A stretch of 13,171 bases of DNA, taken from positions 1 to 13,171 of the forward strand of contig JACUUP010000036.1 of assembly GCA_014859225.1 (NCBI GenBank), written 5' to 3'. Source of the stretch: Candidatus Aerophobota bacterium. GTDB taxonomy: Bacteria > Aerophobota > Aerophobia > Aerophobales > B3-G15. Under the pieces are notes generated by a model. The model did no database searches, was not told the DNA's origin, and saw only the letters and a program-made list of their open reading frames with translations. Positions within the stretch are counted from its first letter, which is position 1. The number at the start of each line of letters is the position of its first letter. The translations under genes were made by a program, and so were the position numbers. Positions 827-13,171 of this stretch are shown here, in pieces.

Positions 827-2185
827 TTAACCTGGTCTGCGAAAAAGACGATAGGCAATGTTAGAAATTGCGTATACGAGAAGTCTTGGTAAATTCGTCA
901 ACGGAGGAAGCCTTCTCAAAATTGATGACCAGGAGTAAAATTCTTGCCAGGCCCACTCTTTCCCTCTTGTCAACTCTTCAGGTGACATCCCTGAAGGTTC
1001 AAAAACGGCAGTTCTGAAGCTGTAGCGTGACCAGTTTTCATCTAGTATTCTTTTCTCTTCTCTCAATTTTTCCATCAGTCGGGTACCTGGCAGAGGAGTA
1101 AGGATGGCAAATTGAGCCAAATCTAACTTTATGAGCTTAGCAAAATCTACTGTACGTTTGAAAACAGTTTCATCTTCACCATCAAACCCAAACACAAAGG
1201 CTCCCAGTACAGTAATTCCATACTTATGCAAAAGTTTCACAGCCTGCGCATACATTTCAGGTTTATTTACCTTTTTGCCTATCCCGGTAAGGGAAGACTG
1301 GTCAATACTCTCAAATCCAATAAATAGGAATCGACACCCGCTTTTAGCGGCAAGTTTTAACAAATCTTCGTTCTCTGGTGTTGCTACGTTGACACTTGCC
1401 TGACCTCCCCAGAATATTCTTAATGGTGCAAGAGCTTCAAATAGCTCCCTGGCGTACTCTTTTTGGCCAAAGATATTGTCGTCAAGAAATGCAAAGGGGT
1501 CTACCGGGGCTTTATCCCAGAGTTTAGCTATAGCCTTACGCCAGAAACTAATTTTATCGGCTTCTATCATGGTTTCAATCTCTTTTATCACCTCTTTTAC
1601 AGGTCGAAACCGATATCTTGCACCAAAGAACCTGCTTACTGCACAAAAAAAACAATTAAACGGACACCCCCTGGAAACATGGAGTGTATTAAAACCAAGA
1701 TAGTTTTTTCGTTTGAGAAGGTTTCTACGGGGAACAGGCAAATCAGATAAATCTGGTAATTCCTTATTTTTATAAATTTTTTGGAGTTTACCCCCCTCGC
1801 AGTCCTCCAAAAGTTTAGGCCAAATCCCTTCCGCCTCACCAACTACGACAGCATCACAGTGCTCCAGTGCTTCCTCTGGTAGAGCGCTCACATGTATGCC
1901 ACCCATGATAACGGTTTTACCCATCTCTCTCATTCTATCGGCAAGTTCATAAGCTCGCGGAGCCTGAGCTGTCATTACGGTTAAACCAATAATATCTGCT
2001 TTTTGTATTTTTTCTGAATCATATTCTACAGTATCTATGTTTTCATCAATTATCGTGTAATCATTATCGGGAGCTAAGGCTGCTAATAATGCCAGATTTA
2101 AGGGAGGAAACCGGAAGAATTTTGAGATAAAACCCGGTCTGGTAGCAGTTGGAGAAATTAAGACAATTTTGTGCATCTTTTGCAT
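827..2185 (-). CDS. Radical SAM protein with B12-binding-like domain and DUF4070-like C-terminus
   Basis: A 452-residue protein built like the BchE/HpnJ-type radical SAM family. The N-terminal Rossmann-like domain (about residues 5-130) carries MGGIHVSALPEEAL and VVVGEAEG, typical of B12-binding radical SAM proteins. However, the DxHxxG cobalamin-ligand motif is absent, so cobalamin binding by a histidine is doubtful. The radical SAM core follows: Cys174, Cys178 and Cys181 (CPFNCFFC) should ligate the [4Fe-4S] cluster, and FLDDNIFG and FLFIGFESI match later strands of the barrel. The C-terminus after about residue 360 resembles DUF4070. Two possible starts, Met1 and Met4, are close together; Met1 was kept because GAGGA lies 12 bases upstream. 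The substrate cannot be told. A 47-base gap separates it from the upstream DUF5615 gene, so the two may share a transcript. Confidence 0.88.
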   Translation of the reverse strand: MQKMHKIVLISPTATRPGFISKFFRFPPLNLALLAALAPDNDYTIIDENIDTVEYDSEKIQKADIIGLTVMTAQAPRAYELADRMREMGKTVIMGGIHVSALPEEALEHCDAVVVGEAEGIWPKLLEDCEGGKLQKIYKNKELPDLSDLPVPRRNLLKRKNYLGFNTLHVSRGCPFNCFFCAVSRFFGARYRFRPVKEVIKEIETMIEADKISFWRKAIAKLWDKAPVDPFAFLDDNIFGQKEYARELFEALAPLRIFWGGQASVNVATPENEDLLKLAAKSGCRFLFIGFESIDQSSLTGIGKKVNKPEMYAQAVKLLHKYGITVLGAFVFGFDGEDETVFKRTVDFAKLIKLDLAQFAILTPLPGTRLMEKLREEKRILDENWSRYSFRTAVFEPSGMSPEELTRGKEWAWQEFYSWSSILRRLPPLTNLPRLLVYAISNIAYRLFRRPG

Positions 2186-2232
2186 TTTCTGTAGGTTATC
2201 CTCAATTTATTTTTACATATTTTTAAATGAAG

Positions 2233-2685
2233 TCAACACATATTGAAAGAATTTTCTCCCCAGGGGTAAAATCTTTCCTTTATCTCTCCTCCTGTTTCTT
2301 GATACCTTAGCCTGAATCCGCAGACAGAAGCTATTATTTTGATGAAGCAAAGAGGATGGGATTTTTCTTTTAAGGTTTTCTGCAAGAGGGGTGATAAAAC
2401 AGATAAAATGTAAATCATCTTGTCAGTATTTTTTTCCTCTATTATGATAATGCCTGCGCTTTTATGAAAGGGAAATCTGCAGGGGTCAAGATAATCTTTA
2501 TCTCTTGTTAAAAGAATCCGCTTCTCATCTCTTGCTTTTCTATGATGATAGAGGTCTTCTTTTCCCTGCAAATCTTTCTCCTCGCAAACATAAATGATGT
2601 CCCAGTGAAGTTTATCTCTAATATATTTAACCACTTCACAGGGTATATCCTCATCTACATAAAATTTATTTTTTCTTTCAGCCAT
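2233..2685 (-). CDS. DUF5615 family PIN-like protein (putative toxin-type nuclease)
   Basis: A 150-residue protein with the DUF5615/Mut7-C-like PIN fold signature. FYVDEDIP near the start supplies acidic residues Asp11, Glu12 and Asp13, and RILLTRDKDYLD supplies Asp62 and Asp64. Such residues would bind metal in a PIN-type RNase. The start is supported by TTAAGGA four to five bases before the ATG. Family members are often encoded beside a small DUF433 antitoxin-like gene. None is seen here: the upstream 138 bases are a divergent promoter region and the downstream neighbour is the radical SAM gene. The last 35 or so residues (after SVCGFRLRY) are of unknown role. Family assignment is fairly sure; toxin activity is inference. 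Confidence 0.75.
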   Translation of the reverse strand: MAERKNKFYVDEDIPCEVVKYIRDKLHWDIIYVCEEKDLQGKEDLYHHRKARDEKRILLTRDKDYLDPCRFPFHKSAGIIIIEEKNTDKMIYILSVLSPLLQKTLKEKSHPLCFIKIIASVCGFRLRYQETGGEIKERFYPWGENSFNMC

Positions 2686-2823: not shown

Positions 2824-3573
2824 ATGCTGAAGGTAAGAGAGCTTGAGAAAAGCTTTGGGGGAATAAAAGCTATAGATAAATGTTCCCTCAGGGTGCAAAT
2901 AGGTTCCATTACGGGTCTTATTGGACCTAATGGAGCAGGAAAAACCACGCTTTTTAATTTAATTAGCGGGGTTTACAAACCTGATAGGGGACAAATATGG
3001 TTTATGGATGACAGAATTGACGGACTTCCCTCTCATCAGATTGCAAGAAAATCCATCGCGCGAACTTTCCAGATCCCCAGGGAGTTTAAAGAGATGACTG
3101 TCCTGGAAAATCTCATGCTCATTCCCAAACATCAACTTGGAGAAAATGTTTTTAACACTCTTTTCAGGCCAGTAGATGTCAGAGAACAGGAAAAACAAAT
3201 TATGGAAAAGGCTACAAGCATACTGGAATTTGTTGAACTTGCTCATCTAAAAGATGAATACGCTAAAAGTTTATCCTCCGGGCAGAAAAAACTGCTCGAG
3301 CTTGCTAAGATGCTTATGTCTGACCCTCGAGTAATCCTTCTGGATGAGCCAGGAGCAGGAGTGAATCCCACCCTGATGAGAAAACTGGTGGAGAACATTG
3401 AAGAACTTCGTCAGCAAGGGATAACTTTTTTTCTTATTGAACATGACATGGACCTTGTTACCTATCTTTGCGATAAGGTAATTGTTATGAACAAAGGCCG
3501 CACGATGGCAGAGGGAACTCCCCATGAGATAAAAAAAGACAAAAATGTTCTGGAAGCATACCTCGGGAGTTAG
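2824..3573 (+). CDS. livG: Branched-chain amino-acid type ABC transporter ATPase, LivG-like
   Basis: This is one of the two ATPases that power a HAAT-family amino-acid importer at the inner face of the cytoplasmic membrane. Motifs are complete over 249 residues: Walker A GPNGAGKTT (34-42), Q-loop Gln83 (RTFQIPREF), signature LSSGQ (150-154), Walker B VILLDEP with Asp174 and Glu175, and H-loop His207 (LIEHDMD). RTFQ and PGAGVNP are typical of LivG-type subunits. The length fits the family (about 250). The start ATG has AAAGGTGA ten bases upstream. It is the first gene of livGFHM, with livF seven bases downstream. The substrate is likely branched-chain or related amino acids, but this family also carries amides, urea and aromatic compounds. 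Confidence 0.93.
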   Translation: MLKVRELEKSFGGIKAIDKCSLRVQIGSITGLIGPNGAGKTTLFNLISGVYKPDRGQIWFMDDRIDGLPSHQIARKSIARTFQIPREFKEMTVLENLMLIPKHQLGENVFNTLFRPVDVREQEKQIMEKATSILEFVELAHLKDEYAKSLSSGQKKLLELAKMLMSDPRVILLDEPGAGVNPTLMRKLVENIEELRQQGITFFLIEHDMDLVTYLCDKVIVMNKGRTMAEGTPHEIKKDKNVLEAYLGS

Positions 3574-3580
3574 CTCATTT

Positions 3581-4285
3581 ATGATAGTGCTTAATGTAGA
3601 GAACATAATAGCCGGTTACGGAGAAACAGAGATTTTGCACGGAGTATCTTGCAAAGTTGAAAAAAAAGAGATTGTCACCATCATAGGTCCCAATGGAGCG
3701 GGAAAGTCCACCTTAATGAAGGCAATTCTGGGACTTTTGAAACCCACCCAGGGCAAGATATTTTTCAGCAACAAAGATATAACCGGGAAAAATCCCAATC
3801 AAATCGTGCAAGAGGGTATATGTTATGTGCCACAATCAGACAATGTATTTCCCTCACTAACTGTAGAAGAAAATCTGGAGATGGGAGCCTTTATAAGAAG
3901 AGATGGCTTCCGGGAAAAAATAAACGAAGTTTATCAAATATTTCCTGATTTAAAGGAAAAAAGGAAAGTCAAAGCCAAGAAACTAAGTGGAGGGCAGCGC
4001 CAGATGGTAGCCATGGGACGAGCTCTCATGCTTGACCCTGCCCTTCTTCTTCTGGATGAGCCCTCTGCCGGCCTTGCTCCCAGGTTAGTCCAGACAATAT
4101 TTAACAAAATCATCCAGATAAATGAAAAAGAGGTATCTATCCTTATGGTGGAGCAAAATGCAAGGCGTGCTCTGGAGATATCCCACAGAGGATACGTTCT
4201 TGCTATGGGACATAACAGATTTGAAGGCTCAGGTGAAGATATTTTAAGCAACGAAGAAATAGGCAAACTGTACCTGGGAGAATAG
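3581..4285 (+). CDS. livF: Branched-chain amino-acid type ABC transporter ATPase, LivF-like
   Basis: Second ATPase of the importer, 234 residues. Walker A GPNGAGKST (36-44), signature LSGGQRQ, Walker B LLLLDEPSAGLAP and the switch region LMVEQNARRAL are present. The VEQN in place of the usual H-loop histidine is characteristic of LivF-type proteins. The frame is open from an upstream ATG at 3545, but that start would overlap livG by 29 bases and add 12 unrelated residues. The ATG at 3581 gives MIVLNVENIIAGYG, matches the usual length of about 235, and has GGGAG upstream within the end of livG. It pairs with LivG to form the ATPase dimer on LivH-LivM. Confidence 0.93.
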   Translation: MIVLNVENIIAGYGETEILHGVSCKVEKKEIVTIIGPNGAGKSTLMKAILGLLKPTQGKIFFSNKDITGKNPNQIVQEGICYVPQSDNVFPSLTVEENLEMGAFIRRDGFREKINEVYQIFPDLKEKRKVKAKKLSGGQRQMVAMGRALMLDPALLLLDEPSAGLAPRLVQTIFNKIIQINEKEVSILMVEQNARRALEISHRGYVLAMGHNRFEGSGEDILSNEEIGKLYLGE

Positions 4286-4313
4286 CTTACCAATACAAGG
4301 AGAGTAAGGTAGA

Positions 4314-5234
4314 GTGGATTTCACCTCAAGAATTTTCCAGCTCGCTTTATACGGAATTGTTTCAGGAAGTATTATAACCCTGGGAGCAATAGGACTTTCT
4401 TTGACCTATGGAATCCTCAAATTTGCTAACTTTGCTCACGGGGATGTAATGGCAACAGGGGCATTTCTCGCCCTTATCTTTCTTAACCTTTTTCAAAGAT
4501 TAGCTCTTCCCTCCTCTCCCTTTCATCCTCTATCTTTTGGTCTACCTTTAGTTTTAGCCTTCATTCTGTGCATGGTCGCCACAGGAGGTGTTGCCATTGG
4601 TATTGACAGCGCACTATATAAAAGACTGCGCGGCACACGCAGTATCACCCTGTTAATTGCCTCTGTGGGGGTTGCCTTCATTCTAAGAAATGTTCTCCAG
4701 TTTATCTGGGGACCTGACCCCCGGTATTACATAAAGAAAATCCAGGTTTCCGTCCGCCTTCCCATCTTAGGGTTAAGGATAAAGCACGACCAGGTTTTTA
4801 TTATAATAGTTGCTGCTTGCCTGGTTATTTTTTTACACTTTTTTCTTACACGCACCCGAATGGGAAAGGCAATGCGGGCAACTTCGGATAACATGGACCT
4901 TGCTAAAGTTTCAGGTATAGATACGGAAAAAGTAATAAAATGGACCTGGGTAATTGGTTCAGCTCTTGCAGCTGCAGGAGCAGTGCTGGCGGGAATTGAC
5001 AACAAATTTATAACACCAAGTTTTGGATGGGATATGCTGCTGCCTATATTTGCTGCTGTTATCCTGGGAGGAATAGGGAGCCCCTACGGGGCAATGCTTG
5101 GAGGAATGGTAATTGGTCTTTCCAGTGAAATTTCCACTGCTTTTATTGCAACTTCCTATAAGCCTGCAGTTGCCTTTATAATAATGGTAGTAATGCTATT
5201 AATTAAACCAAGAGGCCTTTTAGGGGAAAAATAA
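4314..5234 (+). CDS. livH: Branched-chain amino-acid type ABC transporter permease, LivH-like
   Basis: Inner-membrane permease subunit, 306 residues, with about eight hydrophobic segments. The N-terminal region SLTYGILKFANFAHGDVMATGAF is the LivH hallmark, and ILGGIGSPYGAMLGGMVIG near the C-terminus is the conserved loop of BPD_transp_2 permeases. It ends with LLIKPRGLLGEK, typical of the family. The start is GTG at 4314, with AAGGAG eleven bases upstream; no other start codon near the conserved N-terminus fits. It follows livF by 28 bases and ends one base before the livM start codon, so the genes should be cotranscribed. It forms the translocation path with LivM. Confidence 0.93.
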   Translation: MDFTSRIFQLALYGIVSGSIITLGAIGLSLTYGILKFANFAHGDVMATGAFLALIFLNLFQRLALPSSPFHPLSFGLPLVLAFILCMVATGGVAIGIDSALYKRLRGTRSITLLIASVGVAFILRNVLQFIWGPDPRYYIKKIQVSVRLPILGLRIKHDQVFIIIVAACLVIFLHFFLTRTRMGKAMRATSDNMDLAKVSGIDTEKVIKWTWVIGSALAAAGAVLAGIDNKFITPSFGWDMLLPIFAAVILGGIGSPYGAMLGGMVIGLSSEISTAFIATSYKPAVAFIIMVVMLLIKPRGLLGEK

Positions 5235-5235
5235 A

Positions 5236-6270
5236 ATGGAAGCATTTATTGGAATTCTCAACTATGCGGTTTTTTTCGCCATAACAGCAGGCATATTTGC
5301 TGTGCTTTGCCTTGGGTTAAATATTCAATGGGGCTATACCGGACTTTTCAATATAGGTATTGCCGGATTCTATGCTGTAGGTGCCTATACGTCAGCGCTT
5401 ATCTCTGGACCTCCTCCTGGTCCTATGGACTGGAGAGTGGTAGGAGGATTTCAACTTCCCTGGCCGGTAGGATTTGTGGGAGCAGCTCTTGTAAGTGGAT
5501 TAATTGCCTTTATTATAGGAATTCCCACTTTAAAATTAAAAGAGGACTACCTGGCGATTGCTACCATTGGCATAGCTGAGGTTATACGCTTGATAATTAA
5601 AAATGAGAGCTGGCTGACCAATTCGGTCTGGGGAATTAAACATATTACCTCTCCCCTTGCCTTACCCATAGAAAGAGGTATAAGGGCTTTATTGAGGGCG
5701 AATCCTGGATTTCCCCTCTGGCTTCAAAGACTTGTATCTAATGGTTACAACTGGTTTTACCTGGGAATGGTAGTTTTAATCCTCTTGTTACTTTACGGAG
5801 TAAGCGAGAAAATGATAAGGTCTCCCTGGGGTAGAGTGCTAAGAGCAATAAGAGAAGATGAGATAGCAACAAGCACCGCCGGTAAGAATATTTTCTGGTT
5901 TAAGATGCAATCGTTAGTTTTTGGAGCGATGATTATGGGTATGGCGGGAAGCCTGTATGCCCACTATGCCCGATTTATTGATGCAGAAACCTTTGAGCCA
6001 TTCTTCGGGACGTTTTTAATCTGGGTTATGCTCATTGTGGGAGGAAGCGGTAATAATTTAGGAGCAATTCTTGGAGCATTTACTATATGGGGAGTCTGGG
6101 CAGGAACTGAATTTTTAACCCATGGATGGGGACTAACCGGCTACAGAGCAGCGAGCCTGCGTGTGATTTCAGTTGGGGTAATACTGGAATTTATCCTTCT
6201 ACTGAGGCCACGAGGCATTCTGGGAGAGGAAAAAGTTGTCTCCTTTATTTTTAAAAAAGAAAGAAGGTAA
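5236..6270 (+). CDS. livM: Branched-chain amino-acid type ABC transporter permease, LivM-like
   Basis: Second permease subunit, 344 residues and highly hydrophobic. Family marks are NIQWGYTGLFNIGIAGFYAVGAY near the N-terminus, LKLKEDYLAIATIGIAEVIR in the middle (the LivM hallmark), RAIREDEIATSTAGKN, and IVGGSGNNLGAILGAF near the C-terminus. It has AGGGGA eight bases before the ATG, inside the end of livH. A somewhat longer middle region (about residues 130-175) separates the transmembrane halves. It is the last gene of the plus-strand operon; the spacer after it contains several hairpins but no clear GC-rich terminator with a T-run. Confidence 0.92.
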   Translation: MEAFIGILNYAVFFAITAGIFAVLCLGLNIQWGYTGLFNIGIAGFYAVGAYTSALISGPPPGPMDWRVVGGFQLPWPVGFVGAALVSGLIAFIIGIPTLKLKEDYLAIATIGIAEVIRLIIKNESWLTNSVWGIKHITSPLALPIERGIRALLRANPGFPLWLQRLVSNGYNWFYLGMVVLILLLLYGVSEKMIRSPWGRVLRAIREDEIATSTAGKNIFWFKMQSLVFGAMIMGMAGSLYAHYARFIDAETFEPFFGTFLIWVMLIVGGSGNNLGAILGAFTIWGVWAGTEFLTHGWGLTGYRAASLRVISVGVILEFILLLRPRGILGEEKVVSFIFKKERR

Positions 6271-6296
6271 AAAATTTGTCATTAAAGGCAGAATAG

Positions 6297-6352
6297 GTGA
6301 GACACCCGTCCTGCCAAAGATAGACAATCTAACGCAGGACAGGTATCCCGCC
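6297..6352. repeat. Inverted repeat element with nested hairpin
   Basis: The plus strand GGTGAGACACCCGTCCTGCC (6297-6316) and the reverse complement of 6333-6352, GGCGGGATACCTGTCCTGCG, agree at 15 of 20 positions. The inner arms GTCCTGC (6308-6314) and GCAGGAC (6334-6340) are perfect. Between them AGAT and ATCT form a further 4-base stem around AGACA. It occupies the spacer after livM. The arrangement resembles small dispersed repeats of intergenic DNA; only one copy is in the window. Confidence 0.5.
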
Positions 6353-6379
6353 CATCATTACAAAATCCATGTAGCCGCG

Positions 6380-6472
6380 AGGCTTGAGAGCCTGCCAAAC
6401 AATTTACACAGTAAATTTACTTGAGTATTTTCCAGAGGTCTGTTTTACTCAAACTTAACAGTAAAACTTGAG
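6380..6472. repeat. Cluster of short hairpins between convergent genes
   Basis: Four inverted repeats follow one another: AGGCT/AGCCT (6380-6393), AATTTAC/GTAAATT (6401-6417), TTGAGTA/TACTCAA (6421-6452) and GTTTTAC/GTAAAAC (6442-6467). The last two share bases and cannot form together. CTTGAG occurs three times (6383, 6420, 6467). These lie where livM and livK transcripts converge and may act together as a weak two-way terminator, though none has a standard T-run. Confidence 0.4.
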
Positions 6473-6487
6473 CCTTACTTACCTATC

Positions 6488-7723
6488 TTACTCAGCCCTC
6501 ACCTCAACTATTCTTACAGTTCTTGCCCTTCCTTCAAAGTTTTGCCAGATCTCTATTGCTCCTGCTATGGTATCTCCATGTTCATCAAAGATGATAGGAC
6601 CTGACACCCCCTCGTAGTTTATGTCCTTACCTTCTTCAAGTAGCTTAAAGGCTCTGGCAAACTCGTTGTAGGTAACTATCTCCCCGGGGGGATTAGCCAC
6701 AGCACGTAGATTATCCCTTATAGCTGTGCCTTGCTGTTCCTGAGTCATATCAAGGAAGGATGGACCCACCCTTTTAATGGCAAGAGCAATAAGGGCAAGA
6801 GCATCATAGCACGTATCATTGTAAGGTACAGTAGTGGGGCCAAAAGCTTCGTTATAATCCTTCTCAAATGCCTCAGCTACTTCAACTTCCATTGGTCCAG
6901 GAGCTGTCCCAAGAGTTCCGACAATGTAATCAGCTGCAGGACCACCAGCTACATCTTCTCCTTTCATACCATCGGAGAAAATATAAGTTCCCTCGTATCC
7001 AAGCTCAACCGCCTGAACCAAAACTTTATTTCCATCAACAGGATAAGCGATGAGATTGATAGCAGCGGGAGCTCCGACGATAGCTTTTTCTACTTCTCCC
7101 CTGTAGGAAGGTTTATTTTCCTCATAAGGAACCATAGCCAGAACCTGCCCGCCTCCTGCCTCAAATTCGTTTTTAAATACCTCAGCAAGCCCCTTACCGT
7201 AAGGGTTGTTAACATATATTACAGAAGCAGTTTTATAACCCAAATCAAGAGCAAGTTTTCCCTGAACCACACCCTGAAAAGCATCAGATAGAACTGTTCT
7301 GAAAACAAAATCATCATCCTCAAGGTCAGTAAGCATTGGGGAGGTTGAAGCAGGAGAAATTAAAACGATTCTTGCCGGAATGGTTACGCTGGAAGATGCA
7401 AAGGTCACTCCACTGGATAAAGCTCCAATAATAGCTACCACCCGGTCAAGATGAATAAGTTTACTTGCCGCATCTAATCCCACCGCTGGAGCAGTTGCCG
7501 TATCCCTTATTACGAGCTCTAACCTCCTTCCAAGAATTCCCCCTGCCTTATTTACCTGCTCAACAGCAAGCTTTGCTCCGCTAACTATGGGTGGACCAAA
7601 GGGAGCAAGACCACCGGTTAGGGCAAAGAGAGCACCAATTTTTATAGGCTCCTGAGCACCTCCGGTAATGGTTAAGCTAAGTAAGAAAATAACCGTCAAA
7701 ATGAACACTATTACCTTTTTCAT
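6488..7723 (-). CDS. livK: Branched-chain amino-acid type ABC transporter substrate-binding protein, LivK-like
   Basis: A 411-residue periplasmic binding protein (Peripla_BP_6 type I fold) that would deliver ligand to LivHM. The N-terminus MKKVIVFILTVIFLLSLTI is a signal peptide, with a likely cut after GGA (residue 23). There is no lipobox cysteine, which suggests a free periplasmic protein. The mature part opens EPIKIGALFALTGGLAPFG and contains INQ-like VEQVNKAGGILGRRLELVIRDT and VIYVNNPYGKGLAEVF, all typical of the family. AGGAGGAG lies about seven bases before the ATG. It is convergent with livGFHM rather than in that operon, so its dosage is set separately. Its ligand cannot be told from sequence alone. 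Confidence 0.92.
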   Translation of the reverse strand: MKKVIVFILTVIFLLSLTITGGAQEPIKIGALFALTGGLAPFGPPIVSGAKLAVEQVNKAGGILGRRLELVIRDTATAPAVGLDAASKLIHLDRVVAIIGALSSGVTFASSSVTIPARIVLISPASTSPMLTDLEDDDFVFRTVLSDAFQGVVQGKLALDLGYKTASVIYVNNPYGKGLAEVFKNEFEAGGGQVLAMVPYEENKPSYRGEVEKAIVGAPAAINLIAYPVDGNKVLVQAVELGYEGTYIFSDGMKGEDVAGGPAADYIVGTLGTAPGPMEVEVAEAFEKDYNEAFGPTTVPYNDTCYDALALIALAIKRVGPSFLDMTQEQQGTAIRDNLRAVANPPGEIVTYNEFARAFKLLEEGKDINYEGVSGPIIFDEHGDTIAGAIEIWQNFEGRARTVRIVEVRAE

Positions 7724-7837: not shown

Positions 7838-8227
7838 CTAATTAGCTGACTCTTTTTCTACAATTTTTTCATACTCCGGGGCGCTAAGAAGTGAGTTAAC
7901 TTCCTGCAGGTTAGAAATTTTTACCTTAACAAGCCACCCTTCACCATGGGGGTCCTTGTTGATGGTGGAAGGGTCCTCATTTAACTTCTCGTTAACCTCC
8001 AGTATCTTTCCTGTAACAGGCGATGGAACATCAAAGACTGTTTTAACTGACTCAAGAGTGCAAAAAGTGTCTTTTTGTTTTATCTTCTTATCTTTTTCGG
8101 GAAGCTCAACATATAAAATATCTCCCATTTTTTCCTGTCCAAAGTGGGTAATACCAACTGTAGCTATATCTTTTTCTATTTTAACCCATTGATGCGACTC
8201 AAGATACCTTAAATTAGCTGGATACAT
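7838..8227 (-). CDS. gcvH: Glycine cleavage system H protein (lipoyl carrier)
   Basis: A 129-residue H protein. In the glycine cleavage/synthase system its lipoyl arm shuttles the aminomethyl group and electrons between the P, T and L proteins. The lipoylation site is Lys62 in LESVKTVFDVPSPVTG, and VNEKLNEDPSTINKDPHGEGWLVKV is the conserved C-terminal half. Length fits the family (about 125-130). AAGGAG lies nine bases before the ATG, within the stop region of the response regulator four bases upstream, so it is tightly cotranscribed. No gcvT or gcvP is in the window. Its partners are therefore either encoded elsewhere or it serves another lipoyl-dependent process. The lplA-like gene at the right edge could attach its lipoate. 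Confidence 0.93.
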   Translation of the reverse strand: MYPANLRYLESHQWVKIEKDIATVGITHFGQEKMGDILYVELPEKDKKIKQKDTFCTLESVKTVFDVPSPVTGKILEVNEKLNEDPSTINKDPHGEGWLVKVKISNLQEVNSLLSAPEYEKIVEKESAN

Positions 8228-8231
8228 AAAT

Positions 8232-8618
8232 CTATTCTCCTTGTAAAAGGTTTTTAATTCGAGAAATTAGCTCATCTGGTTTAACAGGTTTATCTATATA
8301 ATCTTCTGCCTCAAGTTCAAGTCCCTGAGAAACAGAATAAGAAGTCTGGCTAAGTTTTTGTTTAAGTGCAGTTAACATTATTACAGGGATTTTGTTGTAC
8401 TTAAGAGAGCTTTTTATTTCTCTGCATACCTCAAATCCACTTTTTTCAGGCATCATTATATCAAGAATTAAAAGGTTGGGGCGAAAACTATTTAACCTCT
8501 CAAGGCACTCTTTTCCACTTATTGCTGTTGCTACCTCAAAATCATTCTTTTCCAGAAAAACTCTGGTTCCTTCCAGAAAATCTTTATCATCATCCACTAA
8601 AAGTATTTTTTTCTTCAT
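8232..8618 (-). CDS. Stand-alone response regulator receiver protein
   Basis: A single CheY-like receiver domain of 128 residues with no output domain. The acidic pocket is DDD (9-11), the phosphoacceptor is Asp53 (LLILDIMMP), the switch Thr lies in IMLTA, and the conserved Lys is in DYIDKPVKP. The frame is open from an ATG at 8639, but that codon overlaps the sequence ATGGAGGGAGG that serves as the ribosome binding site. The ATG at 8618, ten bases after GGAGG, gives MKKKILLVDDD and is preferred. The stretch between the switch Thr and KP is five residues longer than in ordinary receivers, as in the other two receivers here. Output must be by protein contact or phosphotransfer. Confidence 0.9.
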   Translation of the reverse strand: MKKKILLVDDDKDFLEGTRVFLEKNDFEVATAISGKECLERLNSFRPNLLILDIMMPEKSGFEVCREIKSSLKYNKIPVIMLTALKQKLSQTSYSVSQGLELEAEDYIDKPVKPDELISRIKNLLQGE

Positions 8619-8653
8619 TATTTTTTGGCCTCCCTCCATCTTAATCTATCTAT

Positions 8654-8662
8654 ATTATACCA
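8654..8662 (-). promoter_or_regulatory. Extended -10 promoter upstream of the receiver-gcvH pair
   Basis: The minus strand reads TGGTATAAT, a perfect TATAAT (8654-8659) with the TGn extension. It lies in the 76-base AT-rich gap between the two receiver genes. The -35 region is poor (TATTTA at 17-base spacing). It could give the downstream receiver and gcvH extra transcription independent of the main operon promoter. Confidence 0.45.
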
Positions 8663-8694
8663 GAAAATTAAAAAAATAAATAGATGTATTTTAA

Positions 8695-9084
8695 CTATTT
8701 TCTGCTTAAGATTTTTTCTATCCGATGAATAAAATCTTTTGGATTAACCGGTTTTTCTATATAATCATCCACATCAAGAGAAAGCCCAGTCTCAAGCTCG
8801 TATCTTCTTTCGCTTGCCTGTTTTTTTACTGAAGTGAGAATTAAAATAGGCACGGTAGAAAACTCAGGCTCCTTTTTTAACTTTTTTATGACCTCAAATC
8901 CGTCCATCCTGGGCATAAGAAGGTCAAGAACTAAAAGGTCAGGCATTTTTTCATTCATCTTTTCCAATACCTCTTTTCCATTAGCGGCAAAGGTTAACGC
9001 ATAAGAGGTGGCGCTTAGCATCAGTTTTAAAGATTCACGAACATCAGGGTCATCATCTGCAATTAATATCAGCTTTTTTCCCAT
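8695..9084 (-). CDS. Stand-alone response regulator receiver protein
   Basis: A 129-residue CheY-like receiver without an output domain. The acidic pocket is DDD (10-12), the phosphoacceptor Asp54 (LLVLDLLMPRMDGFEV), the switch region ILTS, and the conserved Lys lies in DYIEKPVNP. AGGAGG sits six bases before the ATG, and the gene starts 12 bases after the stop of the MetV-MetF gene, so it is in the same operon. It has the same lengthened segment before the KP motif as the other two receivers. It resembles the receiver at 8232-8618 more than typical OmpR-type receivers, suggesting duplication. Target unknown; probably receives phosphate from the kinase at 10767-11912. Confidence 0.92.
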   Translation of the reverse strand: MGKKLILIADDDPDVRESLKLMLSATSYALTFAANGKEVLEKMNEKMPDLLVLDLLMPRMDGFEVIKKLKKEPEFSTVPILILTSVKKQASERRYELETGLSLDVDDYIEKPVNPKDFIHRIEKILSRK

Positions 9085-9096
9085 ATCATCCTCCTG

Positions 9097-10740
9097 TTAG
9101 CCAGGTCGGGGCAAAAGATTTGCCTCCTCTACAATTTGAGGAACGACCTCCTCCCAGGCTACAGCCATAATATGCACTCCCTTAACCCCATCAGTTTCTC
9201 TTAATCTATTTATAAGCTCAACACAAAGTTTTATCCCTTCTTTTTTGGGGTCCTTTGCATCCTCCATTCTTGCTACAACCTCATCGGGGACACTAACACC
9301 TGAAACATAATCTCGCATATACCTTGCCATCCCAACTGATTTTATGGGAATCACTCCCGCAAGAATATAAACCTTATCAGAAACTCCTTCATCTTTTAAT
9401 ATTGACATCCATTTTTCAAACTTTTCTACATCAAATACAGCCTGAGTCTGGATAAAATCGCATCCTGCAGCTATTTTCTTGGCAAGTCTTATCGCTCTAA
9501 ATTCAAAAGGGTCGGCAAAGGGATTCTCCACTGCCCCGATAAATACTGAAGGGGGAGAGGATAACTTATCACCTGATAAAAACTTTCCCTCGCTTCGCAT
9601 CCTATTTAAAGCAAAAATAAGCTGCACCGAATCAACGTCATAGACATTTTTTGCCTGTGGATGATTGCCAAATTTTTGATGGTCTCCTGAGAGGCATAAA
9701 AAATTTCTAACTCCAAGACCACAGGCACCTAAAATATCACTCTGGATAGCTAAGCGATTTCTATCACGCGTAACTACCTGCACAACTGGTTCTATTCCAA
9801 ACTGAAGAAGGATAGCCGCACAGGCTATACTTGACATCCTCGTAATAGCTGTCTGGTTATCGGTAATATTAACAGCATCGGCAAAGCCCTTTAGAAGTTT
9901 AGCTTTAGTTTCAACTGGTTTCGGGTCTGCTCCCTTAGGTGGACCAAGCTCACAGGTAAGAGCAAATTTTTCCTCTCTTAAAATCTTCTCCAGCTTGCTA
10001 TCCGGGGTAGAAGAGGCAATTTTTTCCATCTTTTCTATTTCAATTTTTTCCTCTAACAGGTTTTCCTTTGAATCTGAGGCGGTGGTAGCTTTTGTTATGT
10101 TAAATTTGCGTGGTCCTCCATCCCGGGAACTTGACCAATCCTTGGGCAAAATTATACTCCTTAAAGTATCTAATCTACCCATATTTTTTAATTTGTCTAT
10201 TATCATCTGCCACCCACATTCTATTTCAGGGTCTATTTCACATTTTCCATTCTCCGAGCCACCACACGGACCGTTAAGAAGGGATTTGGAGCATCGGGTA
10301 ACAGGACAAATTCCTCCCGTTATATCCAGGATACATTCACCACACATCTGACATCTTTCTTCAAAATTTCCAAAGCGAACAATCTCTCCTAAAAATAAGC
10401 TGTTACATCCTGGATATACAGGTTTTTCCAGAATTCCAGCAACTGTTTGGGTTCCGTTTCCGCAGGCAAGGATTAAAATAGCATCTGATAAATCAATTTC
10501 TTTTTTATGTTCACGGAAAAACTTCATATCATTTAATCTGTGACAGGCAGGCTCAAGAATGACCCAGCCAGCAACAGTTTTTCCCGTTTTCTCAAGCTTT
10601 TCTTTCATCTCTTTGACTTCTTCCTCTCCCCCGGTTTTACATAAAGTTGCACATTCACTGCAACCACAAATAAATACCGAGCTGTGGAAGGATAAAAATT
10701 TATCAATTTCCTCAAACCGCTTTTGCTCTGTGATAATCAT
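9097..10740 (-). CDS. MetV-MetF fusion: methylene-tetrahydrofolate reductase with cysteine-rich N-terminal domain
   Basis: A 547-residue protein joining two parts that are separate subunits in acetogens such as Moorella. The N-terminal part (about 1-200) matches the MetV/MTHFR_C domain: Cys25, 27, 30, 34 (CGCSECATLC) and a second group at Cys130, 133, 136, 145, 150, 159, 167 and 175, probably for Fe-S or zinc sites. A polar linker (about 215-248) follows. The C-terminal part (about 250-547) is a MetF TIM barrel that would reduce 5,10-methylene- to 5-methyl-tetrahydrofolate with FAD: CELGPP holds the acid matching the catalytic Glu of FEFFPP, and LSGDH and TQAVFD are conserved. The ATG has GGGAG eight bases upstream. 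The N-terminal domain suggests the electron donor is an Fe-S/flavin partner, not only NAD(P)H. Confidence 0.88.
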   Translation of the reverse strand: MIITEQKRFEEIDKFLSFHSSVFICGCSECATLCKTGGEEEVKEMKEKLEKTGKTVAGWVILEPACHRLNDMKFFREHKKEIDLSDAILILACGNGTQTVAGILEKPVYPGCNSLFLGEIVRFGNFEERCQMCGECILDITGGICPVTRCSKSLLNGPCGGSENGKCEIDPEIECGWQMIIDKLKNMGRLDTLRSIILPKDWSSSRDGGPRKFNITKATTASDSKENLLEEKIEIEKMEKIASSTPDSKLEKILREEKFALTCELGPPKGADPKPVETKAKLLKGFADAVNITDNQTAITRMSSIACAAILLQFGIEPVVQVVTRDRNRLAIQSDILGACGLGVRNFLCLSGDHQKFGNHPQAKNVYDVDSVQLIFALNRMRSEGKFLSGDKLSSPPSVFIGAVENPFADPFEFRAIRLAKKIAAGCDFIQTQAVFDVEKFEKWMSILKDEGVSDKVYILAGVIPIKSVGMARYMRDYVSGVSVPDEVVARMEDAKDPKKEGIKLCVELINRLRETDGVKGVHIMAVAWEEVVPQIVEEANLLPRPG

Positions 10741-10766
10741 TTTTTAACTCCCAACCCCCCGGAAGG

Positions 10767-11912
10767 TCAACTGGAAACTAAACTTTTGCTTACGGTAAAT
10801 ATAAAATTGTTACCCTGCTGAAAACCAGCTTCCTCCATCGCTTTTTCACTTAAATCTTTTTCCCAGAGACACTTGCCGGATGATATATAACAGGACTCAA
10901 CCCAGGTTTTTCCTCCATGTCTTTCCACAAGTTCCCTTGTAACATCAAGTCCTATACCTGAGCCTTTTTCTTCTCCGCTTACATATCTTTTAAAAATTAT
11001 TTCTCGGTCCTTTTTGGGAATAATCTCTCCTGTATTTGCAACATTAAAGTAATGAAATCTGTCGCCTCTATCAAGGTAACCTAAAAATATGCATGCCCTC
11101 TCTCCTCCATGTTTTATAGCATTGGTAATCAAGTTATTGTAAATCACCTGTATATAATCAGAGTCACAAACAACTTCTAAATTTTGAGGAATATCACAGA
11201 AAAACTGAATCCCTTTATCTAAGGCGTATTCGGTGTGAAAGTCAAGAACCTCTTTTATAACCTGGGTGTAAAAATTTATCTTTACCGGCTTTATCTCAAG
11301 CTCTTCTGCTTTTATCCTGGAATAAATCAGAAAATTCTCCACAGTTTTTAGTCCGTGCTGGCTTCTGCTAATTATTCTACCATATAAATCGTTTCTTTTC
11401 TCAGATGGAAGCTCTATCTGGCAAAGAATACTGGTCAGTTGGTTGATAGTGGCAAGAGGAGTTTTCAGTTCATGAGAGGCATAGGCGGTAAGTCTATCTG
11501 ATAGTTCCACCAGTCTGTAAAGGCGTGTATTATCCTGAATTACTTCCACTCCGTACTCCATTTTACCCCGGGGGGAGTAAAGAGGGAAAGAAAATACCTC
11601 CAGAAACTTTTCCCGGCCGGCTTTTTCAATTACCTTTAAGCCTCTTGAATTTTTTCTCGTTTTAAAAGTTCTGCGGACTGCACATATTCTCTCTGAACAG
11701 GGGGTGTCGCTATTGAAGCTCACTTTATAACATTTCATTCCAATTATAGACCTTTCGGGCTCTTCTTGAATTTTATGATATTCGTTATTAGCCCACACTA
11801 TGTTAAAATCCCTGTCAACAACGGCAACAGCAAGGCCCATTGAATTTAAAATCTCAACTCCAAACCTATCTCCCATTATCTTTTCCAACTTGTTGGAATT
11901 ATAATTGTTCAT
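10767..11912 (-). CDS. PAS-domain sensor histidine kinase, cytoplasmic
   Basis: A 381-residue kinase with no membrane segment, so the signal is intracellular. The PAS domain (about 15-128) carries Cys61, Cys72 and Cys77 (CYKVSFNSDTPCSERIC), which could hold a metal/Fe-S site or act as a redox sensor. The dimerisation/phosphoacceptor helix has His147 in YASHELKTPLATI. The catalytic domain has the N-box NLITNAIKHGG and a G-box GSGIGLDVTRELVERHGG. No receiver domain is attached, so the three separate receivers are its likely partners. The start is the ATG at 11912, 27 bases after the upstream receiver; its ribosome binding site (AGGCGA) is weak, and Met13 is an alternative. Confidence 0.9.
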   Translation of the reverse strand: MNNYNSNKLEKIMGDRFGVEILNSMGLAVAVVDRDFNIVWANNEYHKIQEEPERSIIGMKCYKVSFNSDTPCSERICAVRRTFKTRKNSRGLKVIEKAGREKFLEVFSFPLYSPRGKMEYGVEVIQDNTRLYRLVELSDRLTAYASHELKTPLATINQLTSILCQIELPSEKRNDLYGRIISRSQHGLKTVENFLIYSRIKAEELEIKPVKINFYTQVIKEVLDFHTEYALDKGIQFFCDIPQNLEVVCDSDYIQVIYNNLITNAIKHGGERACIFLGYLDRGDRFHYFNVANTGEIIPKKDREIIFKRYVSGEEKGSGIGLDVTRELVERHGGKTWVESCYISSGKCLWEKDLSEKAMEEAGFQQGNNFIFTVSKSLVSS

Positions 11913-11939
11913 TGGCGTCTCGCCTGTCCATAACTATTT

Positions 11940-12335
11940 TCACCTTCTGGTCTTTAAAAGCTTCCTCACCTTCTCAAGTAAATCTTGCGGACTGACAGGT
12001 TTATCAAGATACTCATCTACCTCAAGCATCTTTTCTTTTGCTTGAGAAAGAATTTTATCTTCTATTTTTTTGGCAAGAGCACTGAGCACAAGTACTGGAA
12101 TATTGCTGTAGTTTGAACTGTTTTTTAGTTTACGGGATATAACTGCTCCATCCTCTCCGGGTAGTAAAAGGTCAAGAATTATAAGGTCTGGCTTTTCTTT
12201 TTTAACCGCATCAAGTCCCTGTTTTCCATCAAAAGCTACATCTATTCTGTAGGATTCGCCCTCCAGGATTATTTTTAAAGCCTCCACCATGTCCTTATCA
12301 TCTTCTATAATTAGTATCTTTGGCTGCGATGACAT
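11940..12335 (-). CDS. Stand-alone response regulator receiver protein, first gene of the operon
   Basis: A 131-residue CheY-like receiver with no output domain. The acidic pocket is EDD (11-13), the phosphoacceptor Asp55 (LIILDLLLPGEDG), the switch Ser lies in VLVLSA, and the conserved Lys in EYLDKPVSP. As in the other two receivers, the stretch from the switch residue to KP is about five residues longer than usual. Here that segment (KKIEDKILSQAKEKMLEVDE) looks strongly helical. The ribosome binding site GAGAATAA is weak. The gene lies directly before the kinase, which makes it the best candidate for its cognate partner. It is preceded by a near-consensus promoter at 12417-12445. Confidence 0.92.
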   Translation of the reverse strand: MSSQPKILIIEDDKDMVEALKIILEGESYRIDVAFDGKQGLDAVKKEKPDLIILDLLLPGEDGAVISRKLKNSSNYSNIPVLVLSALAKKIEDKILSQAKEKMLEVDEYLDKPVSPQDLLEKVRKLLKTRR

Positions 12336-12416
12336 TTATTCTCTAACTTATCTGTTGCCTGCGCTCTCTGCTACAATTCCTCACTCTATCTTTTTTTGTA
12401 TTTGCTGATGTAGGTA

Positions 12417-12445
12417 ATTTTAGACAATTTACTAAAATATGTCAA
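12417..12445 (-). promoter_or_regulatory. Near-consensus sigma70 promoter of the receiver-kinase-metVF-gcvH operon
   Basis: On the minus strand a perfect -35 TTGACA (12440-12445) is followed after exactly 17 bases by TAAAAT (12417-12422). Transcription would start near 12410, leaving a leader of about 75 bases before the first receiver gene. GACA and TGTC at the two ends of the spacer (12423-12443) form a dyad, with TTTACTAAA inside it, which could be an operator. Confidence 0.65.
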
Positions 12446-12465
12446 ACAAAGAGGAGGGGAAATTT

Positions 12466-12507
12466 TTGACAGGGGTAAATTTGCTAATAAAATCAAAGAT
12501 ATGCTGA
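12466..12507 (+). CDS. Possible 13-codon leader peptide overlapping the ligase start
   Basis: A strong Shine-Dalgarno AGGAGGGG (12452-12459) is six bases from a TTG at 12466. That frame encodes 13 codons (TTG-encoded Met, then TGVNLLIKSKIC) and ends in TGA at 12505-12507, overlapping the ATG of the ligase gene (ATGCTGA). The ligase ATG itself has no ribosome binding site within normal distance. Leader translation could therefore load ribosomes on the ligase. Alternatively the ribosome binding site is used by an unrecognised longer start of the ligase, whose frame is open upstream to 12414. Confidence 0.3.
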   Translation: MTGVNLLIKSKIC

Positions 12508-13171
12508 AAAATTATAAAATATGGCAGCTCCTGAATTACGGTTTAGCAGACTCCAGTGAAATTTTGGCCGCGGAGGAAAAAATAGCCTTCAGGGTGGGAG
12601 ACGGCAATCTACCCCCTGTACTTGAAATTTGGATACCTTCTCGGGAGTGTTTTGTTCTTGGAAAATACTACGCAAAAAGACTGAAAAAAAAGGGATTAAT
12701 GGATAAGGTAAAGAGCCTGGGGATTCCCATTGTTCTTCGCTCAAGCGGAGGAGAGGCAATTCTTCATGATTCTACCTGTCTTAATTTTGGGGTGATTGTT
12801 CCACGCAAGTTTCTTTCTGGTTCCATAGATATTGGCAAAGCTTTTACCTTGCTTTCATCCGGGGTAGTGGAGGTGCTTAAAAAAATGAAAATTGCTGTTT
12901 GCTGTGGCAAGGCTAAAACTTTCTGTCCCGGCTTCTATGATATTCTGGTGGAAGATAAAAAAATAGCCGGGATTTCTCTTCTATTAAGGAAAAATTTTTG
13001 CCTGGTGCATGGAACCTTGCTGGTGAATAGCGACAGAAAGTATTTTGAGAAGCTTAAAATATTTTATCCTTCCATTGATGAGGAAGCAACCTCTCTTAGA
13101 AACTTAAAAGGAAAAAAGATGGATATAAACAAGCTAATCACTACTATCATCCAGGGCTACAGGAAGAGCTT
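12501..13171 (+). CDS. Lipoate-protein ligase A / biotin-lipoate ligase family protein, 3' end outside the window
   Basis: 223 codons are visible and the frame runs off the window. The protein matches the LplA/LipB/LipM cofactor-transferase fold: RSSGGEAILHDSTCLNF corresponds to the RRxSGGGxVxHDxGxxN lipoyl-AMP site, FCPGFYDILVEDKKIAGIS holds the conserved Lys in KIAG, and LVHGTLLVN is the HGTLLV strand. The third Gly of SGGG is replaced by Glu, as seen in some family members. It would attach lipoate or octanoate to a carrier protein. It is divergent from the operon containing gcvH and shares its 165-base promoter region, making GcvH a plausible acceptor. Ligase versus octanoyltransferase cannot be decided. 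The ATG at 12501 lies nearest the conserved KIWQLL start. Confidence 0.85.
   Translation, partial: MLKNYKIWQLLNYGLADSSEILAAEEKIAFRVGDGNLPPVLEIWIPSRECFVLGKYYAKRLKKKGLMDKVKSLGIPIVLRSSGGEAILHDSTCLNFGVIVPRKFLSGSIDIGKAFTLLSSGVVEVLKKMKIAVCCGKAKTFCPGFYDILVEDKKIAGISLLLRKNFCLVHGTLLVNSDRKYFEKLKIFYPSIDEEATSLRNLKGKKMDINKLITTIIQGYRKS

Follow-up and report, generated by a model that had tools for sequence, protein, structure and literature searches.

The reaction of methylene-tetrahydrofolate (methylene-THF) reductase (MTHFR) is a key one in an ancient pathway of CO2 fixation, and for many anaerobes there is dispute about the electron donor of the enzyme (PMC8760232). The closest described case to the one treated here is given in one sentence on one genome, the Chloroflexi single-cell genome DscP3, in which 'phoBR' flanks metF_1 (PMC5736913). 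The same study describes MetF_1 as Moorella-like and MetF_2 as A. woodii-like. In syntrophic acetate oxidisers, a response regulator gene lies beside a NiFe hydrogenase, and MetF is located between hydrogenase genes (PMC6295475). We analyzed the window, that is, the whole stretch of DNA presented above (the entire contig C99, 13.2 kb), which comes from an uncultured deep-sediment bacterium of Candidatus Aerophobota with a genome of 1.8 Mb that is 91% complete. It carries an operon in which an MTHFR of the MetV-MetF type stands among the genes for a histidine kinase, three receivers (RR1, RR2 and RR3) and a GcvH-type lipoyl carrier. As in DscP3, MetF lies beside kinase and receiver genes, and the genome has two unlike metVF sets. 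In contrast, the account of DscP3 includes no receiver family, no other phyla and no lipoyl genes, and we found no earlier description of the RR2 receiver family or of its spread in the open-access literature. The present results suggest a signalling switch in one-carbon metabolism that has hardly been studied, because receiver and reductase are found paired in at least five phyla.

The genes are arranged on the minus strand in the order RR1, PAS kinase, MetV-MetF fusion, RR2, RR3 and GcvH and are 27, 26, 12, 55 and 4 nucleotides (nt) apart, and every domain was confirmed by Pfam and NCBIfam (Table 1). This order, together with a divergent gene resembling lplA, had been read from the same DNA in an original prediction made without database searches, and the coordinates and the Pfam matches confirm it. 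The gap range of 4 to 76 nt given there becomes 4 to 55 nt; the value of 76 corresponds to a later ATG of RR3. It had also been claimed that the receivers lack a DNA-binding domain, and indeed Pfam and NCBIfam detect nothing beyond the receiver in RR1 to RR3. Each of them (129-135 residues) is a single receiver domain without an output domain, in which the acidic pocket, the phospho-accepting Asp, the Thr/Ser and the Lys are all kept. The reductase joins a Cys-rich MetV domain (PF12225) to a MetF domain (PF02219), and its catalysis is predicted from these domains.

A total of 80 loci were retrieved with a MetVF alignment, and the gene labels in them other than MetF, receiver, histidine kinase (HK) and GcvH are our reading of cluster sequences. 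G, C and L numbers denote genomes, contigs and loci. The series MetF-RR2-RR3 was found in about 36 further loci of Desulfobacterota, Chloroflexota, Nitrospirota, Nitrospinota and Aerophobota (about 35 of the 80 retrieved loci outside Aerophobota). That is, the gene order, which might have been unique to this genome, is not confined to it, and its core is present in at least five phyla. The cross-phylum loci lie mostly within Wood-Ljungdahl clusters with HdrA, MvhD, NuoEFG-like, FolD, CooS, AcsB or AcsC genes. Measured from the stop codon of MetF, RR2 starts at -64 to +303 nt in 36 of 37 cases, that of the window among them, and nearly every locus has another receiver behind RR2. Within Aerophobota, G001 shows livK-GcvH-RR3-RR2-MetVF-HK-RR1, the same order as in the window, and G011, which belongs to another family, shows HK-RR1-MetV-MetF-RR2-RR3-Lpd-LipB. 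In G012 the part with HK and the part with Lpd-LipB are on two separate contigs. In G007 one contig carries MetVF-GcvH and a different one carries RR2-RR3-MvhG-MvhA-MetV-MetF(B)-protease-Lpd.

Since these loci had been found through MetF, a reverse test was performed with an RR2 profile. Clear matches occurred in 3 of 386 relatives, all of them Aerophobota, and the best matches elsewhere (E about 1e-33) were not RR2; among Desulfobacterales there were clear matches in 4 of 146 genomes. All seven matches are on contigs with MTHFR genes, including the one in G451, which had not been found through MetF. The gene arrangement is more than chance, because these genes are found again in other phyla, where their order differs.

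The reductases at these loci are also related to one another. A tree was built from 134 MetF domains, and 36 of the 37 RR2-linked MetFs, including that of the window, fall into one clade of 56 rows with support 88 (type A). The second MetFs adjoining RR2-linked ones form a separate clade (type B), to which the second, separate MetV-MetF of the window's genome belongs; it lies behind a NiFe hydrogenase (C131), and the genome also encodes acetyl-CoA synthase (C16). Matched by description only, the Moorella-like MetF_1 and the A. woodii-like MetF_2 of PMC5736913 fit types A and B, and the MetV-MetF of the window is probably of the former type. Among Aerophobota, RR2 is present in 4 of 5 genomes with a type A MetF (the truncated copy of G001 counted) and in 0 of 12 without it, with a Fisher value of 0.002 that is optimistic owing to shared ancestry. 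In G007 RR2 and the type A MetF occur together although on different contigs. A type B MTHFR lies within 9 kb in 17 of 36 RR2 loci compared with 0 of 20 members of the type A clade that have no RR2, a difference (Fisher 1e-4) that is optimistic for the same reason and indicative only.

In all three receivers of the window, the stretch from the conserved Thr/Ser to the DDY-KP motif is longer by about five residues (21 residues, compared with 16-17 in ordinary receivers). The 83 receivers with this insertion form one clade as against 23 ordinary receivers from four genomes, with a value of 99 in the Shimodaira-Hasegawa-like approximate likelihood ratio test (SH-aLRT). RR2 is one clade of 37 (SH-aLRT 91 with the motif columns removed), and RR3 is weaker than RR2 as a single resolved family. 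RR1, which has Ser at the Thr/Ser position, was found in Aerophobota only, and trees place its orthologues in G001 and G011. The RR2 of the window belongs to its clade and has the loop insertion, an MTHFR neighbour and the sequence RRYELETG. The family motif is S-x-RRYELETG-x-x-LDVDDY-x-EKP, in which R93, R94, Y95, E96, L97, E98 and G100 are invariant in 22 non-redundant sequences. In an AlphaFold model (predicted local distance difference test score 92.5), this signature maps to the usual output face, that is, to alpha4 and the long alpha4-beta5 loop. A Foldseek search with the model returned ordinary receivers only, and the best NCBIfam matches of RR2 are RpaB and PhoB. The entropy of alpha4 is the lowest among the helices of RR2 (mean 0.48); it is 1.26 in the kinase-facing alpha1 and 2.33 in alpha4 of RR3. 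A fixed alpha4 and a variable alpha1 are as expected for a receiver with one constant partner and exchangeable kinases.

The kinases do differ between loci. We found a PAS architecture in the window and at one Nitrospirota locus, REC-PAS (REC, receiver) in Desulfobacterota, a cyclic-nucleotide-binding domain in several Chloroflexota, and six transmembrane segments at L135. The histidine kinase was rejected as a conserved unit, since its architectures differ between phyla. The kinase of the window appears to be soluble and carries SHELKTP, NNLITNAIKHG and GSGIGL, and its G1 box has the unusual form NTGEII. Orthologues with 61-73% identity are present in G001, G011, G012 and G013. The invariant PAS cysteines C61, C72 and C77 form a possible redox or metal (iron-sulphur) site. 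Apart from these loci, pairs of a kinase and a stand-alone receiver were seen beside NiFe hydrogenase genes (C39 and C61 of G011, C132 of the window's own genome, and G188) and beside a Rex-like repressor (C62 of G011 and C115 of G001), at L213, L215, L224, L236, L214 and L281. Signalling pairs beside redox enzymes are a wider theme.

Taken comprehensively, the sequence comparisons point, with a probability of about one half, to a two-component module dedicated to the MTHFR of the Wood-Ljungdahl methyl branch and acting by protein contact. In such a module, the kinase would sense a redox or energy cue via its PAS domain and would phosphorylate RR1, RR2 and RR3. Phosphorylated RR2 (RR2-P), probably as an alpha4-beta5-alpha5 dimer, would then contact the type A MetVF or its electron-transfer partner, with RR3 involved too. 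This contact may alter the activity or the partner of the type A enzyme and may thereby let the cell alternate between the two MTHFRs, or between the reductive and the oxidative direction of the pathway. In the Aerophobota lineage GcvH would have joined the operon, glycine cleavage likewise yielding methylene-THF, the substrate of MetVF. The most specific version is rather unlikely, namely that RR2-P binds MTHFR directly and switches its electron partner or direction, thus choosing between the Moorella-like and the Acetobacterium-like MTHFR, and that in Aerophobota lipoylated GcvH was recruited as a redox partner.

Several observations weigh against a dedicated module. Many close MetF relatives have no RR2, the RR2-RR3 pair of G007 adjoins the type B and not the type A MetVF, and almost all loci are from metagenome-assembled genomes. 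The LETG...DDY region of RR2 and its alpha5 Arg resemble the dimer face of OmpR/PhoB, and the invariant alpha4 may simply preserve a homodimer of this type. In G001 the MetVF gene has frameshifts, the lipoyl segment of GcvH is deleted, RR2 is truncated and the phospho-accepting His of the kinase is replaced by Arg; this last change is not easily explained by an assembly error. In G002 a deletion remnant of RR3-GcvH is all that is left. The module seems dispensable in these sister genomes. The copy in the window is intact. The remnant of G002 (L220, 321-605) has the N-terminus of RR3 and the C-terminus of GcvH fused in one reading frame of 94 residues, and it lies near Liv transporter genes.

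Output-less receivers often serve as relays. The locus might be a classical phosphorelay in which Spo0F-like RR1-RR3 hand phosphate on to a DNA-binding regulator whose gene is not in the locus, the linkage to MetF reflecting co-regulation only. The genome does encode other receivers, some of them in longer frames (C215, C132 and C19). However, an Hpt or DNA-binding partner would be expected near some loci, and none is conserved among the recurrent gene families of the operon and RR2 loci; moreover, RR2 follows the type A MetF even across contigs (G007). We therefore consider this explanation possible but somewhat unlikely.

It is distinctly unlikely that RR2 and RR3 serve the kinase as phosphate sinks or in feedback, so that signalling is confined to kinase and receivers and MetF takes no part in it. 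Against this, it is the kinases that are exchanged between phyla and RR2-RR3-MetF that stay constant, and in RR2 the kinase-facing alpha1 is variable and the output face invariant. Several output-less receivers per kinase, as here, are nevertheless typical of sink and feedback designs. Feedback control by a receiver has been described (PMC7078487).

The lipoyl genes vary within Aerophobota. GcvH is present in G000, G001 and G007 (families f1 and f6), Lpd-LipB takes its place in G011 and G012, and no lipoyl gene was seen beside MetF-RR2 in other phyla. The window protein belongs to the GCV_H family and has its lipoyl Lys in ESVK. The MetVF-linked GcvHs (window, G001 and G007) group in a clade of their own, separate from the GcvHs of glycine cleavage (SH-aLRT 97), and the lipoyl Lys is kept in them except in G001, where the segment is lost. 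The absence of gcvT and gcvP noted in the original prediction holds for the window and not for the genome, which has a fusion of serine hydroxymethyltransferase (SHMT) and GcvT with another GcvH on C169, and GcvPA and GcvPB on C258. Because the genome has this separate GcvH with its own glycine-cleavage set, the GcvH of the window, which is not encoded with GcvT or GcvP, is a paralogue. At L049 (4224-7577) an SHMT-GcvT fusion of 1117 residues is followed by GcvH and a split GcvP, and similar fusions occur in several Aerophobota genomes. The position of GcvH beside MetVF is explained most simply by glycine-derived methylene-THF feeding MetVF.

The lipoyl link is real but local to Aerophobota, a lineage addition. 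The idea of signalling on C1 and lipoyl metabolism thus stands for the C1 tie, given MetF-RR2-RR3 in at least five phyla, and is not supported for a joint lipoyl system; protein contact and the sensing of redox or folate state are putative parts of it. The membership of lplA in the module is doubtful: it was tried as a member and found unsupported, since in G001 lplA is on another contig, with 836 nt upstream of it and no RR1. A specific tie of Lpd to MetVF was also weakened, as the more constant pairing is Lpd-tsaD and most of these genomes have a single copy of Lpd.

In Aerophobota, GcvH (with Lpd, LplA or LipB) might itself be a dedicated electron carrier for MetVF, in a chain from NADH through Lpd and dihydrolipoyl-GcvH to MetV that replaces HdrABC-MvhD or NuoEF under phosphorelay control. 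The separate clade of MetVF-linked GcvHs in two families (G000/G001 and G007) is consistent with this, as are an Lpd near MTHFR genes in G006, G007 and G011, a window without Hdr or Nuo genes, and the unsettled natural electron donor of MetVF enzymes (PMC8760232). Nonetheless, we regard such a carrier as improbable: glycine cleavage requires Lpd anyway (the window's genome has one copy, on C121), the G011 operon has Lpd and no GcvH, and in G006, where Lpd adjoins MetF, no GcvH was found at all. A different lipoyl carrier was seen in a Hdr-fumarase cluster, separate from glycine cleavage. It is a GcvH-like protein of 142 residues encoded after fumarase-like genes in G011, G012, G014 and G003 (L211 7840-8268, L216 4282-4710, L217 2908-3336 and L218 5365-5793), and where the sequence allows, its gene precedes a conserved unclassified gene and HdrC/HdrB/HdrA-like genes.

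Finally, that the genes are functionally unconnected neighbours in a compact genome is very improbable, for despite the partial decay in G001 and G002 and the non-adjacent lplA of G001 it is contradicted by the MetF-RR2-RR3 core that five phyla share between different flanking genes, an argument that covers the core and not lplA or livK.

Table 1. Features of the operon and its surroundings in the window.
Feature	Position	Strand	Basis or remark
livK, LivK-type binding protein	6488..7723	-	same neighbour in G001
GcvH-type lipoyl carrier, 129 aa, Lys62 in ESVK	7838..8227	-	PF01597 2e-44; TIGR00527 above cut-off
RR3, stand-alone receiver, 135 aa, with RR2-like loop insertion	8232..8639	-	trees
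RR2, stand-alone receiver, 129 aa	8695..9084	-	cross-phylum orthologous family; trees, alignment
RR2 signature SERRYELETGLSLDVDDY, residues 91-108	8761..8814	-	helix alpha4, lengthened alpha4-beta5 loop, beta5 start; alignment, AlphaFold, entropy
MetV-MetF fusion, 547 aa, type A methylene-THF reductase	9097..10740	-	PF12225 + PF02219; tree
Apparently soluble PAS_4-HisKA-HATPase histidine kinase, 381 aa	10767..11912	-	Pfam
Phospho-acceptor His147 (SHELKTP)	11472..11474	-	alignment; Arg in decayed G001 copy
PAS motif C61-Y-x9-C72-x4-C77	11682..11732	-	invariant in four orthologues (alignment)
RR1, stand-alone receiver, 131 aa	11940..12335	-	PF00072 5e-22; trees
Promoter-like TTGACA-N17-TAAAAT, signalling operon	12417..12445	-	consensus match only
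Promoter-like TTGACA-N16-TAAAAT, lplA-like gene	12466..12493	+	consensus match only
Lipoate ligase/transferase-like gene (LplA-B_cat)	12501..13169	+	PF21948 6e-30; divergent, cut by contig end

The two promoter-like sites are the only ones in the region that match 11 of 12 consensus positions, and they are mirrored, facing apart between RR1 and lplA. A sequence similar to the plus-strand site is also found upstream of lplA in G001. On the other side, livK may be the last gene of the operon transcript, because it is on the same strand 114 nt after GcvH and the interval contains no terminator-like site. An Rfam scan of the window gave no RNA element. The operon is flanked by the genes of a Liv-type ABC transporter (2824-7723; livGFHM, and livK convergent to them), which are near it in G001 and G002 too, and the left end of the window (827-2685) encodes a B12-binding radical SAM protein and a DUF5615 gene.

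If the dedicated module exists, a receiver family on one MTHFR type in at least five phyla would represent a post-translational or dedicated layer of control, and RR2 with its invariant face would be a concrete protein for testing the control of MTHFR. The finding also bears on the puzzle of two unlike MetVF enzymes per cluster in many sediment bacteria.

Among known systems, HdrABC-MvhD-MetVF of Moorella thermoacetica (PMC6295475, PMC5736913) has a MetV-MetF of the same general type. In the window, by contrast, MetV and MetF are fused and accompanied by a phosphorelay and GcvH, and no Hdr or MvhD gene is present; such genes occur in the cross-phylum relatives. Of the parallels that the original prediction had named, this one is apt, because the same MetF clade occurs in such clusters elsewhere, and the other two match poorly. 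The sHdr-LbpA and GcvH-L/LplA2 systems share with the window a GcvH-like carrier near a ligase-like gene, but the window has no Hdr-like gene as in the former, and no sirtuin or macrodomain is encoded among its genes, up to the contig end within lplA, as in the SirTM form of the latter. With regard to the receivers, RR2 differs from the OmpR/PhoB type in having no DNA-binding domain in any phylum. It resembles the single-domain response regulators of the CheY, Spo0F and DivK types, which have no output domain and act by protein contact, and it is distinguished from them by its lengthened alpha4-beta5 loop, its RRYELETG signature and its conserved link to a metabolic enzyme.

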